Source: Bacteroidales bacterium
GTDB lineage: Bacteria > Bacteroidota > Bacteroidia > Bacteroidales > GCA-2748055
Direction of reading: 5' to 3'
Assembly: GCA_023135025.1 (NCBI GenBank)
Contig: JAGLTY010000040.1
Span: forward strand, 1-10,726
Length of the DNA: 10,726 nt
Under the pieces are notes generated by a model. That model ran no database searches and was not told the DNA's origin. It worked only from the letters and a program-made list of their open reading frames with translations. Position numbers and translations under genes: made by a program. Of this stretch, positions 5,231 through 10,726 are shown in pieces. The stretch's first letter is position 1. The number at the start of each line of letters is the position of its first letter.

Positions 5231-5241
5231 AAAATTGTTTG

Positions 5242-5249
5242 TATATTTG
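5242..5249 (+). promoter_or_regulatory. Bacteroidota -7 promoter element for the HTH-MNT/HEPN operon
   Basis: TATATTTG matches the Bacteroidota sigma-factor -7 consensus TAnnTTTG exactly and lies 29 bases before the ATG at 5279. A TTG at 5223-5225 is the nearest candidate for the -33 element, but its spacing (16 bases) is shorter than the usual 19-21. The element overlaps the first base of the operator-like palindromes that follow, so a bound repressor would block the promoter. Confidence 0.55.
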
Positions 5250-5279
5250 ACATAAATTGTCAAGACAGAAAATGTCAAA
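5246..5279 (+). promoter_or_regulatory. Putative tandem operator for antitoxin autoregulation
   Basis: The half-sites GACA (5249-5252), TGTC (5258-5261), GACA (5264-5267) and TGTC (5273-5276) form two GACA-N5-TGTC palindromes repeated every 15 bp. The first extends to TTGACA-TAAAT-TGTCAA, and the outermost pair is TTTGACA/TGTCAAA. The block fills the space between the -7 element and the start codon at 5279. Both palindromes share the spacer length and the A-rich spacer. It is the natural target for the XRE-type helix-turn-helix at the N-terminus of the first gene, and its position predicts repression. Binding itself is inferred. Confidence 0.6.
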
Positions 5280-5872
5280 TGTTTTCCCTGGGAGATACCA
5301 TAAGAGAGGCCAGGCTGGAGAAGGAGCTTCCGCTCAGGGTTGTGGCGGCGTACCTGGAAATTGACCAGTCCATCCTCAGTAAAATTGAGTGCGGAAAACG
5401 TAATGCCAGGCGGGACCTGGTCCTCAAACTGGCACACTATTACGAACTGGATCCTGAATATCTAATAAAACTATGGCTAAGTGACCGGATTCTGGATGAA
5501 CTTGTCGGGGAGTCTCATCCCGAGGCCGTGTTACGAGTAGCTGAAGAGGCCCTGGCATACAAAAAATCTGTTCCTGTTAGCAGAGCTTCCCTGCTGAAAC
5601 AGTTCAGGCGGGTCATGGAGGATTTTCCTGCCATTCAGAAAGCCTGGATATTTGGATCTTTTGCAAGGAATGAGGAGGGTCCTTTCAGTGATATTGATAT
5701 TTTGATTGAGGTTCCGGAATCCCTTACATTTAGTTTATTCGATATAGCTGAAGTCAGGAAAAAACTGCAAAATCATACTCCTAAAGAGATCGATCTGGTA
5801 ATGTCCAGAGCACTTAAGCCTGAGGTCCTTGAGCGCGTTATGAAGGAAAGGAGGCTGTTTTATGAAGTCTGA
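5279..5872 (+). CDS. Antitoxin: XRE-type HTH fused to MNT-family nucleotidyltransferase (MntA-like)
   Basis: The protein has 197 residues and two domains. Residues about 5-62 are an XRE/Cro-type helix-turn-helix (TIREARLEKELPLRVVAAYL, then DQSILSKIECGKR, then LVLKLAHYYELDPEYLI). Residues about 105-197 are a minimal nucleotidyltransferase: GSFARNEEGPFSDIDI gives the GSX10DXD motif with G126, S127, D138 and D140, and a third acidic candidate is D172 in KEIDLV. In characterised MNT/HEPN pairs the MNT protein transfers AMP from ATP to a tyrosine of the HEPN toxin and so inactivates it. All residues needed for that are present. The N-terminal HTH is not part of the classical stand-alone MntA and suggests the antitoxin also represses its own operon, consistent with the tandem palindromes just upstream. 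The gene overlaps the toxin gene by 11 bases. The ATG at 5279 gives an intact HTH; an ATG at 5272 is out of frame. Confidence 0.85.
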   Translation: MFSLGDTIREARLEKELPLRVVAAYLEIDQSILSKIECGKRNARRDLVLKLAHYYELDPEYLIKLWLSDRILDELVGESHPEAVLRVAEEALAYKKSVPVSRASLLKQFRRVMEDFPAIQKAWIFGSFARNEEGPFSDIDILIEVPESLTFSLFDIAEVRKKLQNHTPKEIDLVMSRALKPEVLERVMKERRLFYEV

Positions 5873-6206
5873 TAAACAAAGCGGCCAGTTGAGAATCCAT
5901 CATATTCTGAAAGCTATTCAGGATATTCAATCATTTACCTCTGGTATTACTTATGAAGATTTCACAAAGGATGCAAAGATTTATTACGCCTGCCTGTATC
6001 TGTTTGCCATTATCGGGGAGGCTATTGTGCGTATCGATTCAAGTCTTTTGGATAGCTATAATTATCCCTGGTACAAGGTGCGGTCATTTCGAAATTTCAT
6101 CATGCATGAATATCATGCCATAGATGAAAAGGTGGTTTGGGATACCATTGAACAGGAGTTGCCTGAGTTTAGAAAACTTATGGAGCATATTCTGGAAGTC
6201 GGGTAA
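5862..6206 (+). CDS. HEPN-domain RNase toxin (HepT-like, DUF86)
   Basis: This 114-residue, all-helical small protein contains RNFIMHEY (77-84), a perfect RX4HXY signature of HEPN ribonucleases with R77, H82 and Y84. R and H form the RNA-cleaving site, and the tyrosine is the AMP acceptor in characterised HEPN/MNT pairs. The remainder (IHHILKAIQDIQSFTSGITY, YACLYLFAIIGEAIVRI, and DTIEQELPEFRKLMEHIL) matches the DUF86/HepT layout, and the length is normal. Its ATG lies within the last codons of the antitoxin gene (11-base overlap), indicating translational coupling with antitoxin first. The predicted role is a translation- or tRNA-targeting RNase held inactive by its partner and released under stress or phage infection. 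The target RNA cannot be predicted. The DNA is visibly more AT-rich than uvrD or murA, consistent with horizontal acquisition. Confidence 0.85.
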   Translation: MKSDKQSGQLRIHHILKAIQDIQSFTSGITYEDFTKDAKIYYACLYLFAIIGEAIVRIDSSLLDSYNYPWYKVRSFRNFIMHEYHAIDEKVVWDTIEQELPEFRKLMEHILEVG

Positions 6207-6213
6207 AAAAACG

Positions 6214-6236: not shown

Positions 6237-6884
6237 ATGACATACGATTATAATTCCAGCCGAAAGAAGTTGATCCTGCCCGAATATGGAAGAAATATCC
6301 AGAAGATGGTGAACCATATCAAAACCATCGAAGATCGCGATGAACGAAACAAGGCTGCCCGAACAGTTATTGGAGTGATGGGAAACCTCAATCCTCACCT
6401 GAGGGATGTGAGTGATTTCAAGCATAAACTCTGGGATCACCTGGCCATCATTGCCGATTTTGACCTCGACATTGATTCGCCTTATCCATGGCCGGAGCCG
6501 GAGTCGTTTCAAAACAAGCCCAACAACGTTCCTTATCACCAGCACAGGATTGCCAAGAAGCACTATGGCCGATCCATCGTCCTGATGATCGAAAAAGCGG
6601 TTGCCCTGGAGCCGGGCGAAGAGAAAGAGGACCTGGTGAAAATGATTGCTTACCATATGAAAAAGTCATACCTCACCTGGAACAGGGAGGCGGTAAGTGA
6701 TGAAGAGATTTTTGCCGATATGAAGACGCTCTCTGGTGGCGTACTGGTGGTGAATCCCGATCTGAAACTGCCAGAAACAAGAGAAATACTTGCCAAGAAC
6801 CGTCCCGTTAACCCCAAACAAAAGGGGGGTGGTAAAAAGGGCAAGCACAAGCAGCAATACCAGCAGCACCAACACAAACAATAG
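6237..6884 (+). CDS. DUF4290 domain-containing protein
   Basis: This 215-residue soluble protein has no signal peptide or membrane segment. The opening MTYDYNSSRKKLILPEYGRNIQKMVNHI region, the ERNKAARTVIGVMGNLNPHLRDV block (36-58) and FKHKLWDHLAIIADFDLDIDSPYP (61-84) are the conserved core I associate with the DUF4290 family, which is confined to Bacteroidota and commonly placed beside murA. The molecular function is not established. The C-terminal tail from about 193 is basic and low-complexity (KQKGGGKKGKHKQQYQQHQH), rich in Lys, Gln and His, and probably disordered and nucleic-acid- or membrane-contacting; that role is speculation. It is separated from murA by 18 bases and is almost certainly in one operon with it. 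Confidence 0.85.
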   Translation: MTYDYNSSRKKLILPEYGRNIQKMVNHIKTIEDRDERNKAARTVIGVMGNLNPHLRDVSDFKHKLWDHLAIIADFDLDIDSPYPWPEPESFQNKPNNVPYHQHRIAKKHYGRSIVLMIEKAVALEPGEEKEDLVKMIAYHMKKSYLTWNREAVSDEEIFADMKTLSGGVLVVNPDLKLPETREILAKNRPVNPKQKGGGKKGKHKQQYQQHQHKQ

Positions 6885-6902
6885 TCAGCATATTACTGTT
6901 CC

Positions 6903-8210
6903 ATGGGGAAGTTCATCATTGAGGGGGGACAGCGCCTGAAAGGGGAGATCACCCCCCAGGGTGCTAAAAATGAAGCACTCCAGATTCTGTGTGCCACCCT
7001 GCTGACTTCCGAGCCTGTTACCATACATAATCTTCCACGCATTAATGATGTGCTGCTTCTTATTCAGTTGCTGCGTGATCTGGGTGTTGATATTGAGCAA
7101 CTTACCGATACCAGTTACCGTTTCCGCGCAGCCGATGTGGACCTTGACTATTTCCGGACCGATCTATATATACAACAATCAGCATCCCTGAGGGGATCTG
7201 TGATGATCCTTGGGCCTCTGCTGGCGCGTTATGGAAAAGCGGTGCTTCCCAAACCAGGAGGGGATAAGATTGGACGGAGAAGGCTCGATACCCATTTCCT
7301 GGGGTTCCAGGCACTGGGAGCCACATTTGATTTTGATCATGCAGAGAACTTTTATGAGGTCATCGCTTCCAACCTGAAGGGTACCTATATGCACCTCGAC
7401 GAAGCATCGGTAACCGGTACGGCCAATATTATTATGGCCAGTGTGATGGCAGAGGGGACAACGACCATTTACAATGCAGCCTGTGAACCCTATATCCAGC
7501 AGCTCTGCAAGATGCTGGTCCGAATGGGAGCCACTATTGAAGGGATTGGCTCGAACCTTCTCACTATCCGGGGGGTGGATTTCCTGGGAGGGACGGAACA
7601 CACCATATTGCCCGATATGATCGAGGTGGGTAGCTTTATCGGAATGGCTGCTATGACAAAGTCTGAGCTCACCATAAAAGATGTGGCCTTTGAACAGCTG
7701 GGCATTATTCCAACCTCATTTCAACGGTTGGGAATTGAATTTGAGAGGAGGGGGGATGACATTTATGTTCCAGCACAGGATCACTATACCATCGAGACCT
7801 TTATCGACGGTGCTATTATGACCATTGCCGATGCTCCGTGGCCCGGGCTCACCCCCGATCTTTTAAGTGTCATCCTGGTCACCGCCACCCAGGCAAAGGG
7901 CAGCGTGCTGATCCATCAGAAGATGTTTGAAAGCCGGCTCTTTTTCGTGGATAAGCTGATCGATATGGGAGCACAGATTATCCTGTGTGACCCGCATCGG
8001 GCCACTGTGATCGGACTGGATCACGCCATCCGGCTCCGATCGACCATCATGTCATCGCCCGATATTCGTGCAGGAGTGGCCCTGCTGATTGCAGCCATGT
8101 CGGCCGAAGGAACCAGCACCATATATAATATAGAGCAGATCGACCGGGGCTATGAGAACATCGATACCAGGCTCAATCAGCTTGGGGCCTCCATCCGCCG
8201 CGAGGTCTAA
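6903..8210 (+). CDS. murA: UDP-N-acetylglucosamine 1-carboxyvinyltransferase (MurA), Asp-type
   Basis: MurA transfers enolpyruvate from PEP to UDP-GlcNAc, the first committed step of peptidoglycan synthesis, in the cytoplasm. The protein has 435 residues. Seen in the sequence are the substrate-binding pair K22-N23 in GAKNEAL, the RGSVMILGPLLARYG region (97-111), the active-site loop PKPGGDKIGRRRLDTH (116-131), PWPGLTPDL with D319 (equivalent to E. coli Asp305) and DIRAGVALL with R389 (equivalent to Arg397). The loop position that is Cys115 in E. coli is D121 here. Asp at this site keeps activity but abolishes covalent attack by fosfomycin in other MurA enzymes, so intrinsic resistance of the target is expected. 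A second gene for a Cys-type enzyme cannot be excluded from one window. The start ATG lies 18 bases after DUF4290. No shift or truncation is seen. Confidence 0.95.
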   Translation: MGKFIIEGGQRLKGEITPQGAKNEALQILCATLLTSEPVTIHNLPRINDVLLLIQLLRDLGVDIEQLTDTSYRFRAADVDLDYFRTDLYIQQSASLRGSVMILGPLLARYGKAVLPKPGGDKIGRRRLDTHFLGFQALGATFDFDHAENFYEVIASNLKGTYMHLDEASVTGTANIIMASVMAEGTTTIYNAACEPYIQQLCKMLVRMGATIEGIGSNLLTIRGVDFLGGTEHTILPDMIEVGSFIGMAAMTKSELTIKDVAFEQLGIIPTSFQRLGIEFERRGDDIYVPAQDHYTIETFIDGAIMTIADAPWPGLTPDLLSVILVTATQAKGSVLIHQKMFESRLFFVDKLIDMGAQIILCDPHRATVIGLDHAIRLRSTIMSSPDIRAGVALLIAAMSAEGTSTIYNIEQIDRGYENIDTRLNQLGASIRREV

Positions 8211-8816: not shown

Positions 8817-8833
8817 GGTTACTGCCTGTGCTG

Positions 8834-10726
8834 ATGAAAAAATCAGGAACTCTCCTGCTCCTGCTCCTGTTCCTTCAGATACTTATCGTAACAGAGCTGC
8901 CTGCACAGTCCGCATTACGGCTGATCGATCACTTCCCCGAAATTGACACTGCTGGTCAGGAAGCCCCAATTCCTCTCTTTTCGGTAGTTGTCAATGGCTC
9001 AACGGTCAGTTCATCTGAATTTTTAAGAGATCCGGCCGGAACCTTTTTCCACCCGCAACTGCAGATCCGGGCCGATGTTCTGGAAATGTCAAAGGAGCTG
9101 GAGTTTCAATGCAGGATCATTCGAATCAGGAACAAATCCGGGGATACCCTTGAAATTGAGAACCTGCTACCCCTGGGAGCATCCCCAGATCGACCCTACA
9201 TTACTGGTTACGGACCACCGGGTCTGACCCGGGCCACTCTGTTCAGGCCGGACAAAGGTCCGGTGGGACTGATCGTACCGGATAATGCCTGGGAACTGGG
9301 TCTTACTGCACTGGATATCTCCCCCGACAGCGGGATCACCCTGCTTGCACGGCGGGATGCCTGGGATCATGCAAAGCGAAGGAGATATTCGACCATTCTT
9401 TACCCGGGTGGGGAGGTCAGTTATAAGGTCTATACCGAAGCATACCGGGGTGACTGGAAATCGGGATTGATGCATCTGTTCAGGGACCGCTGGTTGTATG
9501 ACCTGCAGGAATTTGACAATCATCTTTATGAACGAACCGATCTTCAATGGATACGGGAAGATTACCTGGCGGTACTGCAATTTGCCTGGGACCGGGATTT
9601 CTATTCCATGGATAGAGGCTCCTATGATCCTTTCCGGGAGTTCTTTCACCGCTTTGACCATTACCACGGGGGGTACGATATCTATGCCATCTGGCAAGGC
9701 TGGCCGCGTCTTGGGCTTGATCAACGCAACCAGTGGGATCTTTTCCGTGACCTTCCGGGAGGTACCGATTCGCTCAGGAGTATCTCCCGCTATTGCAGAG
9801 ATCACCAATCCGCATTCTTTATCTCCTACAATCCCTGGGATGAAGCTACCCGTCAGCTCGATCACCTGGAGGCCATAACGGGGCTCATCGGGGAAACCGG
9901 GGCCGACGGGGTGGTCCTCGATACCCGGGGAAGCTCAAGTGCAGCACTTCAAAAGGCTGCTGATAAGGCTAAAAGGGGTGTGGTCATGTATTCTGAAGGG
10001 ATGGCTGTCCCCGGGGATATGCCCGGGATCATATCCGGCAGGGTACATAATGCCATCCGGATGTCGCCTCCATTGAACCTGAACCGGCTTATCAAGCCCG
10101 AATTCCAGGTGTTCAGGGTGCTTGATCTGAGAGACGGGAGAACCCACCGTGAAATGGCCATCTCCCTTTTCAACGGGTACGGGGTGGAGGTGAATCTGTT
10201 CTCCCCCGCCCATCCCTGGTGGATAGAAGAGGAATACCGGTTTATGGGCAGGTGCCTGATGATCCTGAGGCAGAACCAGGAAGCATTCCATGACCTGAAC
10301 TGGATTCCCCTGGTGGAATCACCCGACAGTATCTGGGTGAATAAGTGGCACGACGGGGATAAAATCCTTTACACCCTTCTTTCTATGAAGCCTGAAGGCC
10401 ATTCAGGACTCCTTCTCCCGGCTGAAAACAGGGATCTGCACTGGGTCTCCCTCTGGGATCATAAAGAGATTCTGCCCCAGGAGACTTCGGAAGGTCCCTT
10501 GCTGGAGTGCAGGATCGATCCCTTTAGCCCGGCATACTCCGGGACACGGAGCGAGGGAAGTGTCCAGTGTATGGCAGGGTTCCCCGAATTGCTCAGGTGG
10601 GAAATGGATGCGGATTCCCTGATCCTGGGTGCCTTATCGGGCGACCGGATCCTGGTCTGGAAGGGCGATCCCTCCTATTCCAACAAGCACAAATCGGAAT
10701 ACTTGCTGGACAAGGAGGTAGAGATA
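8834..10726 (+). CDS. Large exported protein, possible glycoside-hydrolase-like TIM barrel (partial, runs off right edge)
   Basis: The frame is open from ATG 8834 to the window end (631 codons, no stop). Residues 1-26 are a signal peptide with a poly-Leu core and probable AQ cleavage near 25 (ELPAQS). About 30-205 is beta-rich, as in the N-terminal domains of many glycosidases (GDTLEIENLLPLG, KGPVGLIVPDNAW, STILYPGGEVSYKVYTEAY). About 240-480 has barrel-like strand-loop pieces: YDIYAIWQGW (281-290), SAFFISYNPWDE (326-337), GADGVVLDTRG (356-366, D363) and GVVMYSEGM (382-390, E388). Acidic residues at strand ends make D363 and E388 candidate catalytic groups, but this is inference from pattern only. 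From about 490 a beta domain begins (KWHDGDKILYTLLSMKPEGH). I do not recognise the family with certainty. Large multi-domain Bacteroidota proteins of this type sometimes carry a further C-terminal domain, which would lie outside the window. Confidence 0.7.
   Translation, partial: MKKSGTLLLLLLFLQILIVTELPAQSALRLIDHFPEIDTAGQEAPIPLFSVVVNGSTVSSSEFLRDPAGTFFHPQLQIRADVLEMSKELEFQCRIIRIRNKSGDTLEIENLLPLGASPDRPYITGYGPPGLTRATLFRPDKGPVGLIVPDNAWELGLTALDISPDSGITLLARRDAWDHAKRRRYSTILYPGGEVSYKVYTEAYRGDWKSGLMHLFRDRWLYDLQEFDNHLYERTDLQWIREDYLAVLQFAWDRDFYSMDRGSYDPFREFFHRFDHYHGGYDIYAIWQGWPRLGLDQRNQWDLFRDLPGGTDSLRSISRYCRDHQSAFFISYNPWDEATRQLDHLEAITGLIGETGADGVVLDTRGSSSAALQKAADKAKRGVVMYSEGMAVPGDMPGIISGRVHNAIRMSPPLNLNRLIKPEFQVFRVLDLRDGRTHREMAISLFNGYGVEVNLFSPAHPWWIEEEYRFMGRCLMILRQNQEAFHDLNWIPLVESPDSIWVNKWHDGDKILYTLLSMKPEGHSGLLLPAENRDLHWVSLWDHKEILPQETSEGPLLECRIDPFSPAYSGTRSEGSVQCMAGFPELLRWEMDADSLILGALSGDRILVWKGDPSYSNKHKSEYLLDKEVEI

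Follow-up and report, generated by a model that had tools for sequence, protein, structure and literature searches.

The HTH-MNT and HepT-like genes

The window analyzed here, a 10,726-base stretch of a Bacteroidales genome (G000; throughout, G numbers label genomes and L numbers label loci), encodes a putative toxin-antitoxin pair whose antitoxin carries a predicted DNA-binding domain of its own. The antitoxin gene comes first (5279 to 5872, plus strand) and, judging from its open reading frame (ORF), Pfam matches, alignment and a structural model, specifies a putative antitoxin and repressor of 197 amino acids in which an N-terminal helix-turn-helix (HTH) is fused to a minimal nucleotidyltransferase (MNT) domain. 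On the same strand, and with 11 nucleotides in common (5862 to 5872), follows the ORF of a putative short HepT-like HEPN toxin of 114 amino acids (5862 to 6206), with a GGAGG 5' of its ATG. An XRE-HTH/MNT fusion overlapping a HEPN gene had been proposed in an earlier note on this DNA, and both the ORFs and Pfam bear it out: the larger protein matches HTH_3 at residues 8-62 (34.3 bits, cut-off 23) and NTP_transf_2 at residues 107-193 (56.7 bits, cut-off 21), and the smaller matches HepT-like PF01934 (83.2 bits, cut-off 23.5). The HTH is not degenerate in the window protein, an eventuality the earlier note had raised. A helical linker (approximately residues 63-105) joins the HTH to the MNT domain, and its first part is common to a family of stand-alone controllers described below.

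The signature residues named in that note were found in place and are conserved. In an alignment of 42 sequences, the antitoxin residues G126, S127, D138 and D140 of the GSX10DXD motif never vary, nor does a third acid, D172. The strict motif occurs in 71/72 distinct fusions, the exception (L034) being a locus with no HepT match. In the toxin, R77 and Y84 of the RX4HXY motif (R77-X4-H82-X-Y84) are invariant and H82 is at least 90% conserved among 48 aligned HepT sequences. The fusion usually precedes HepT, as a search suggested by the note made clear, but not always: an intact HepT frame (at least 90 model positions) with RX4HXY lies downstream in 60/68 distinct fusion loci having room for it, and all 60 keep the tyrosine. 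Four of the 72 distinct fusions (L055, L058, L064 and L106) were left out of this count because the contig or locus ends too soon after them.

Excerpts of PMC7641770 define class I pairs by PF01909 and PF01934, GSX10DXD and RX4HXY, and report three AMPs on Y104. The window pair has these sequence features, namely adjacent PF01909 and PF01934 genes with both motifs. It resembles the type VII MntA/HepT system (class I HEPN/MNT; SO_3165/SO_3166 of Shewanella oneidensis) in its families, gene order, motifs and folds, and differs from it in having an N-terminal HTH and linker of approximately 100 amino acids, an operator of the form TTGACA-N5-TGTCAA, and NCBIfam scores below the cut-off. The toxin is also short, at 114 amino acids versus 128-152 residues for the top-ranked HEPN toxin chains in a fold search.

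The operator and the stand-alone controllers

Upstream of the pair lies a palindrome, TTGACA-N5-TGTCAA, with perfect 6-bp arms (5247 to 5263), the dedicated operator of the earlier note. We found that it is kept together with the HTH across relatives, matching at 10/12 positions or more in 62/70 distinct fusion upstreams (L006, whose start is outside the contig, the duplicate L007, L004, which is on the same contig as L033, and L083 were not counted). The same threshold was reached in 11/2100 shuffled upstreams and in 26/2919 stretches of 130 bases taken elsewhere in these loci, and conservation across relatives on this scale is more than chance would give. Within the window's own assembly (2.5 Mb, approximately 81% complete), TTTGACA-N5-TGTCAA with at most one mismatch occurs at one place only, 5246-5263. 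The pattern read backwards gave 3 and 4 matches there, so the single copy is no rarer than chance, and the search says only that a second copy was not found.

The palindrome is positioned as expected for repression. TAnnTTTG is the -7 promoter box of Bacteroidota, and a match to it, TATATTTG (5242 to 5249, plus strand), points to a promoter of the pair at these positions; the TTG of the box doubles as the opening three bases of the left operator arm. Such an overlap between TAnnTTTG and an operator arm is present in 28/62 fusion loci having the site, and the distance from operator to start codon is 14-17 nucleotides in 46 of these 62. A third half-site, TGTCAA (5273 to 5278), touches the start codon and is a possible second, weaker dimer site. 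Among relatives, TCAA occurs at most 22 nucleotides downstream of the palindrome in 49/62 fusion loci, compared with 670/4650 shuffles. By sequence, the window protein has the features expected of an HTH autorepressor antitoxin: its HTH is intact, and a palindrome lies at the inferred promoter of its gene.

The HTH family and its operator also stand before other defense genes, a connection that goes beyond the earlier note. At 34 loci, the HTH and linker (query residues 1 to approximately 97) form a separate protein of approximately 100 amino acids (L112, whose match is to the HTH only, is counted here and not as a fusion). The operator matches at 10/12 positions or more in 31/34 stand-alone upstreams; of these 31 loci, 27 show the overlap with TAnnTTTG, 23 have the 14-17 nucleotide distance to the start and 26 have the downstream TCAA. 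Taking as next gene the largest frame starting at most 400 nucleotides away, picked mechanically, Pfam (n = 34, E up to 1e-5) gave N6_N4_Mtase 5 times, C5 DNA_methylase 4 times, N6_Mtase and AAA_15 3 times each, and D12 methylase, GmrSD, ResIII, Fic and Bro-N once each, families that may overlap on one protein. Seven of 20 next genes scanned singly had no family at E 0.001. By PADLOC, the 25 families listed out of 255 matched were all DNA-methyltransferase models.

Fusions and stand-alone controllers are intermixed on a tree of the HTH (97 columns; the identical L049 and L083 left out), which requires 17 changes between the two states (bootstrap range 15-18, at least 6 of them forced), compared with a mean of 28.7 when the states are shuffled. 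A single origin of the fusion was recovered in 0% of 200 bootstrap trees.

Proposed mechanism and alternatives

Comparison among relatives provides the architecture, motifs, partner, operator conservation, stand-alone relatives and insertion on which our interpretation is built. We consider it likely that the module is a type VII-like MntA/HepT pair whose antitoxin has been joined to the HTH and operator of a Bacteroidota defense controller. In line with this model, the HEPN protein would be a ribonuclease toxin, as its family suggests, and the MNT half, with its motifs intact, would silence the toxin by transferring the AMP of ATP onto its Tyr84. The N-terminal HTH, probably as a dimer on the palindrome over the promoter, would repress the two-gene operon, and the half-site before the start codon may hold a second dimer. 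Loss of the antitoxin, or its titration by toxin that is not modified, would derepress the operon, and the antitoxin would be remade first. The HTH and operator would derive from a Bacteroidota family otherwise encoded as separate proteins before restriction-modification (R-M) and other defense genes, presumably with exchange in that direction. Control of MNT/HEPN operons has been obscure, and here the putative DNA-binding part lies within the antitoxin itself, with a defined candidate site.

If the HTH reads the palindrome, changes in one might be matched in the other, and the evidence for this is limited. Both 5-bp arms (TTGAC/GTCAA) are perfect in 66/104 upstreams (49 fusion, 17 stand-alone). 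Three lineages show a coordinated change of the two arms together with an altered recognition helix: TGGAC/GTCCA arms accompany the helix DLSLVSKWERG or DFSLVSKWERG (L084, L091 and L094), TTGGAAA/TTTCTAA, whose arms match at 6/7 positions, accompanies DQSTLSK[IV]ERN (L089, L090, L097 and L109), and TAGACA/TGTCTA accompanies DQGLLSK (L082). In L106, a site like TTGGAAA/TTTCTAA, not the script's choice, can be seen by eye.

Several results weigh against the interpretation of a fused controller acting on its own operon. Symmetry is imperfect, as one arm departs from TTGAC/GTCAA in 23/104 upstreams and both in 15/104. The commonest helix, DQAILSK, is present in only 57/103 HTH rows though the site varies little. 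In L087, the STLSK helix seen in the TTGGAAA lineage goes with a TTGACA/TGTCAA-type site with a 4-base spacer (by eye), a mismatch that weakens the link between helix and operator, and neither L022, one of the 8 fusion upstreams below 10/12, nor L013 has a convincing operator. Since one-arm changes are commoner than joint ones, and given these three loci, conservation and not co-variation is the main evidence that the HTH reads the site, and it is from conservation with limited co-variation that we infer binding and repression. No good -33 promoter element was seen by eye upstream of the pair. The NCBIfam equivalog models for MntA (NF047752, 47.3 bits) and HepT (NF047751, 40.5 bits) both fall short of the cut-off of 60; the picture is less tidy than the earlier note implied, and we claim the proteins not as equivalogs but as a divergent pair that would work alike. 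The predicted structure has a pTM of 0.54, which leaves the domain arrangement uncertain. In a fold search with the toxin, HEPN toxins rank first with weak E-values (best 0.019, none at or below 0.001), and a sequence search found no solved structure for it at E up to 1. The HTH tree has few columns, such that repeated fusion is not separable from recombination or transfer. Finally, 8/68 fusion loci have no intact HepT: the frame is split in L043 and L068, the match is truncated in L070, and there is no HepT HMM match downstream in L034, L046, L069, L075 and L107, although L069 and L075 start HepT-like by eye. The fusion can therefore persist alone, and retention of the antitoxin while the toxin is lost is what a toxin-antitoxin pair predicts.

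Four other explanations have to be weighed against a fused controller. The first, which we regard as rather unlikely, is that this is a plain MntA/HepT pair, in which repression is ordinary for MNT antitoxins and the HTH adds affinity only. Passages of PMC4621449 describe the stand-alone MntA SO_3165 as binding its own promoter without a predicted DNA-binding domain, with promoter activity 1.6-fold higher in a strain without both genes. By this account, a dual function is not new as such, and the suggestion of the earlier note that the fusion is special in uniting toxin silencing with repression in one protein is weakened and, in that form, not supported. What speaks for a specific role of the HTH is that the operator is common to non-MNT controllers (31/34), which points to recognition by the HTH, and that the intermixing with stand-alone controllers on the tree suggests regulatory rewiring. 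In part of Makarova et al. 2009 (PMC2701414), a HEPN-RHH fusion is described and a DNA-binding component in trans is considered possible; the excerpts of that paper and of PMC3710099 hold no mention of an HTH-MNT fusion. Neither this fusion nor the shared operator was described in the titles and abstract beginnings of the openly licensed PMC articles that our literature searches listed. As far as those searches go, three things are new: the HTH dedicated to the pair, the operator that goes with it, and the connection with a family of defense controllers.

It is also possible, though we think it improbable, that the HTH acts as an activator-repressor switch like the controller (C) proteins of R-M systems, with one dimer at the palindrome and another at the half-site giving delayed and then limited expression after entry into a new cell. 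The pairing of full site and half-site is regular, with an offset of 10-11 nucleotides in 68/75 loci having TCAA within 22 nucleotides (93 loci examined), and a fold search with the HTH returned C.AhdI and C.Esp1396I among its matches. C proteins, like the stand-alone relatives that precede R-M genes, are small HTH proteins encoded before defense genes with their own operator. Their operator and neighbors are unlike those seen here, however, and the fold similarity is common to many Cro-like repressors. By sequence, the HTH matches C.AhdI at E 0.015. The palindrome overlaps the promoter box instead of lying upstream of it, which favors repression.

HigA-like HTH antitoxins usually neutralize their toxins by binding, without catalysis. 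That the window antitoxin likewise sequesters its toxin, as in type II systems, with the MNT active site secondary, seems to us decidedly unlikely. Unlike HigA-kind antitoxins, its neutralizing half is a nucleotidyltransferase, GSX10DXD is intact in all but one of the fusions (71/72) and the acceptor tyrosine is found in all 60 intact toxins. Some room for binding is left by PMC11586414, excerpts of which describe adenylylation in Legionella as incomplete and also propose a distinct binding mode for toxin control. Very improbable, lastly, is a decayed or domesticated remnant with an inactive toxin, for which one could cite that the sequence comes from a metagenome-assembled genome (MAG) only and that 8/68 relatives have no intact HepT, since motifs, overlap and operator are all intact and the insertion is absent from 13 other same-genus sites.

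Possible exchange among defense operons and setting of the module

The fused-controller interpretation raises the question of how the HTH came to head different operons. MNT is not its only fusion partner. Among six long frames chosen in a search of 296 genomes drawn over the phylum, we found the HTH fused to Fic domains in four loci (L140, L142, L144 and the divergent L143, at 25.7 bits with a cut-off of 24) and to a C5 methylase in L145, so that the fused first enzymes comprise two unrelated kinds of AMP-transferase, MNT and Fic, as well as a C5 methylase. Their leaders carry the site at 10-11/12 positions, inverted in L145 (TTGTCA/TGACAA). For L142, the scan had fallen on a chance match within the gene, and the leader site was read by eye as ATGACTAAATTTGTCAA. 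In L140, L142 and L144, what looks like the N-terminal part of the coding sequence contains the operator, and translation may really begin further downstream. Regulators fused to operon enzymes have precedents in M.SsoII-type methyltransferases, which have an N-terminal regulatory region (PMC3978073, in part) and resemble L145 while involving no toxin-antitoxin pair, and in CR.NsoJS138I of Niabella soli, a C-REase fusion in which controller and operon enzyme keep both activities, according to a portion of PMC3850674. There the controller is fused to a restriction enzyme; in the window it is fused to an antitoxin.

Some stand-alone relatives, and one fusion locus, head R-M operons, an arrangement not present in the window. 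A search with a 64-nucleotide leader found 9 loci, with matches of at least 49 nucleotides in 8. In pairwise comparisons of L104 with L095, L102, L103 and L105, the leader and HTH are alike, as is DNA past the next gene, and L098 and L103 are alike over the whole stretch. The gene between the shared parts differs among L104, L095, L102, L105 and L103/L098. For L095 and L104, the DNA shared beyond it reads as a type III mod, by likeness to the Mod of L040. Similar leaders and HTHs before different genes, followed by shared DNA, suggest an exchange of cargo inside R-M operons. The leader and HTH lie at approximately 3850-4300 in L095, L098 and L102-L105, which come from MAGs or strains titled as different Bacteroidota families. 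In L040, HTH-MNT and HepT genes are followed 4 nucleotides later by Mod, then a further small gene (126 amino acids, 6616-6996) and Res. This type III setting occurs in 1/66 loci (65 fusions and the window; tblastn with 13 query proteins, most flanks at most 4 kb), and a plausible route is that the pair was placed behind an R-M controller and then fused to it. Part of PMC12255303 describes a comparable arrangement in an E. coli defense island, which has DarTG2 inside a type I R-M system and is repressed by RptR; as proposed for L040, a single small repressor controls an R-M operon into which a toxin-antitoxin system is embedded, though RptR is a separate protein whose TAGCTA site occurs in three direct repeats.

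We tentatively suggest, as a possibility we would hold with less than even confidence, that a Bacteroidota cassette of an approximately 100-amino-acid HTH and TTTGACA-N5-TGTCAAA heads many unrelated defense operons and has fused repeatedly to their first enzyme, forming a cross-wired network. As the operator varies little, a controller may act on the promoters of other operons in its cell, and toxin-antitoxin and restriction systems that have the operator in common are predicted to regulate one another. If so, both would belong to one network, in which losing one system derepresses another.

Across the phylum sample the fusion is uncommon; it is denser in the order to which the window belongs. 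Matches covering most of the query (at least residues 18-196) were present in 9/100 nearest genomes and in 2/296 genomes drawn over the phylum, own genome included in both; the latter search, which scored no more than 10 candidates per genome at E up to 1e-15, may undercount. A protein search found 167 relatives, and the best 120 had the HTH model together with nucleotidyltransferase models in 117 cases, a count biased towards fusions as this search admits proteins of similar length only. The best 80 of 577 confirmed stretches comprised 65 fusions and 15 matches to the HTH only; one fusion is from a Chlorobiota MAG (L065) and one from an Ignavibacteria MAG (L075), and the rest are titled Bacteroidota or its groups. 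By tblastn, no relative covering more than 80% of the query was found in 12 matching plasmid records or the 1 matching phage record, and nine IMG/VR loci gave partial matches only to the fusion.

In the window, the pair lies between uvrD and a DUF4290 gene, followed by an EPSP-synthase-family gene, which we take to be murA-like, a thioredoxin-like gene and others, including, at 8828-10726, a 633-amino-acid open frame without a match in Pfam or, up to E 0.01, in NCBIfam. The inserted module extends approximately from the uvrD stop to TACTTTTG, a TAnnTTTG box before the DUF4290 gene (5231 to 6213, borders placed by eye). By tblastn, neither module gene is present at 13/13 other same-genus uvrD-DUF4290 loci, where the gap (uvrD stop included) is 37-92 nucleotides in 12/13 cases versus 1009 in the window; DUF4290 went unmatched in a further 4 of the 18 genomes of the genus that were searched. 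Given this absence, the module seems to have arrived recently at a site that tolerates insertions, and no target-site repeat was seen by eye at its borders. In G015 (L132), the gap of 454 nucleotides holds a different XRE-type gene behind an apparent toxin remnant (translated by eye), making the spot a possible insertion hotspot. G010 and G015 both carry the fusion elsewhere in the genome. The window's own genome contains a second MNT gene, stand-alone, which overlaps a HepT-like match with two stops (L002; G000:C146, 204-533, minus strand).
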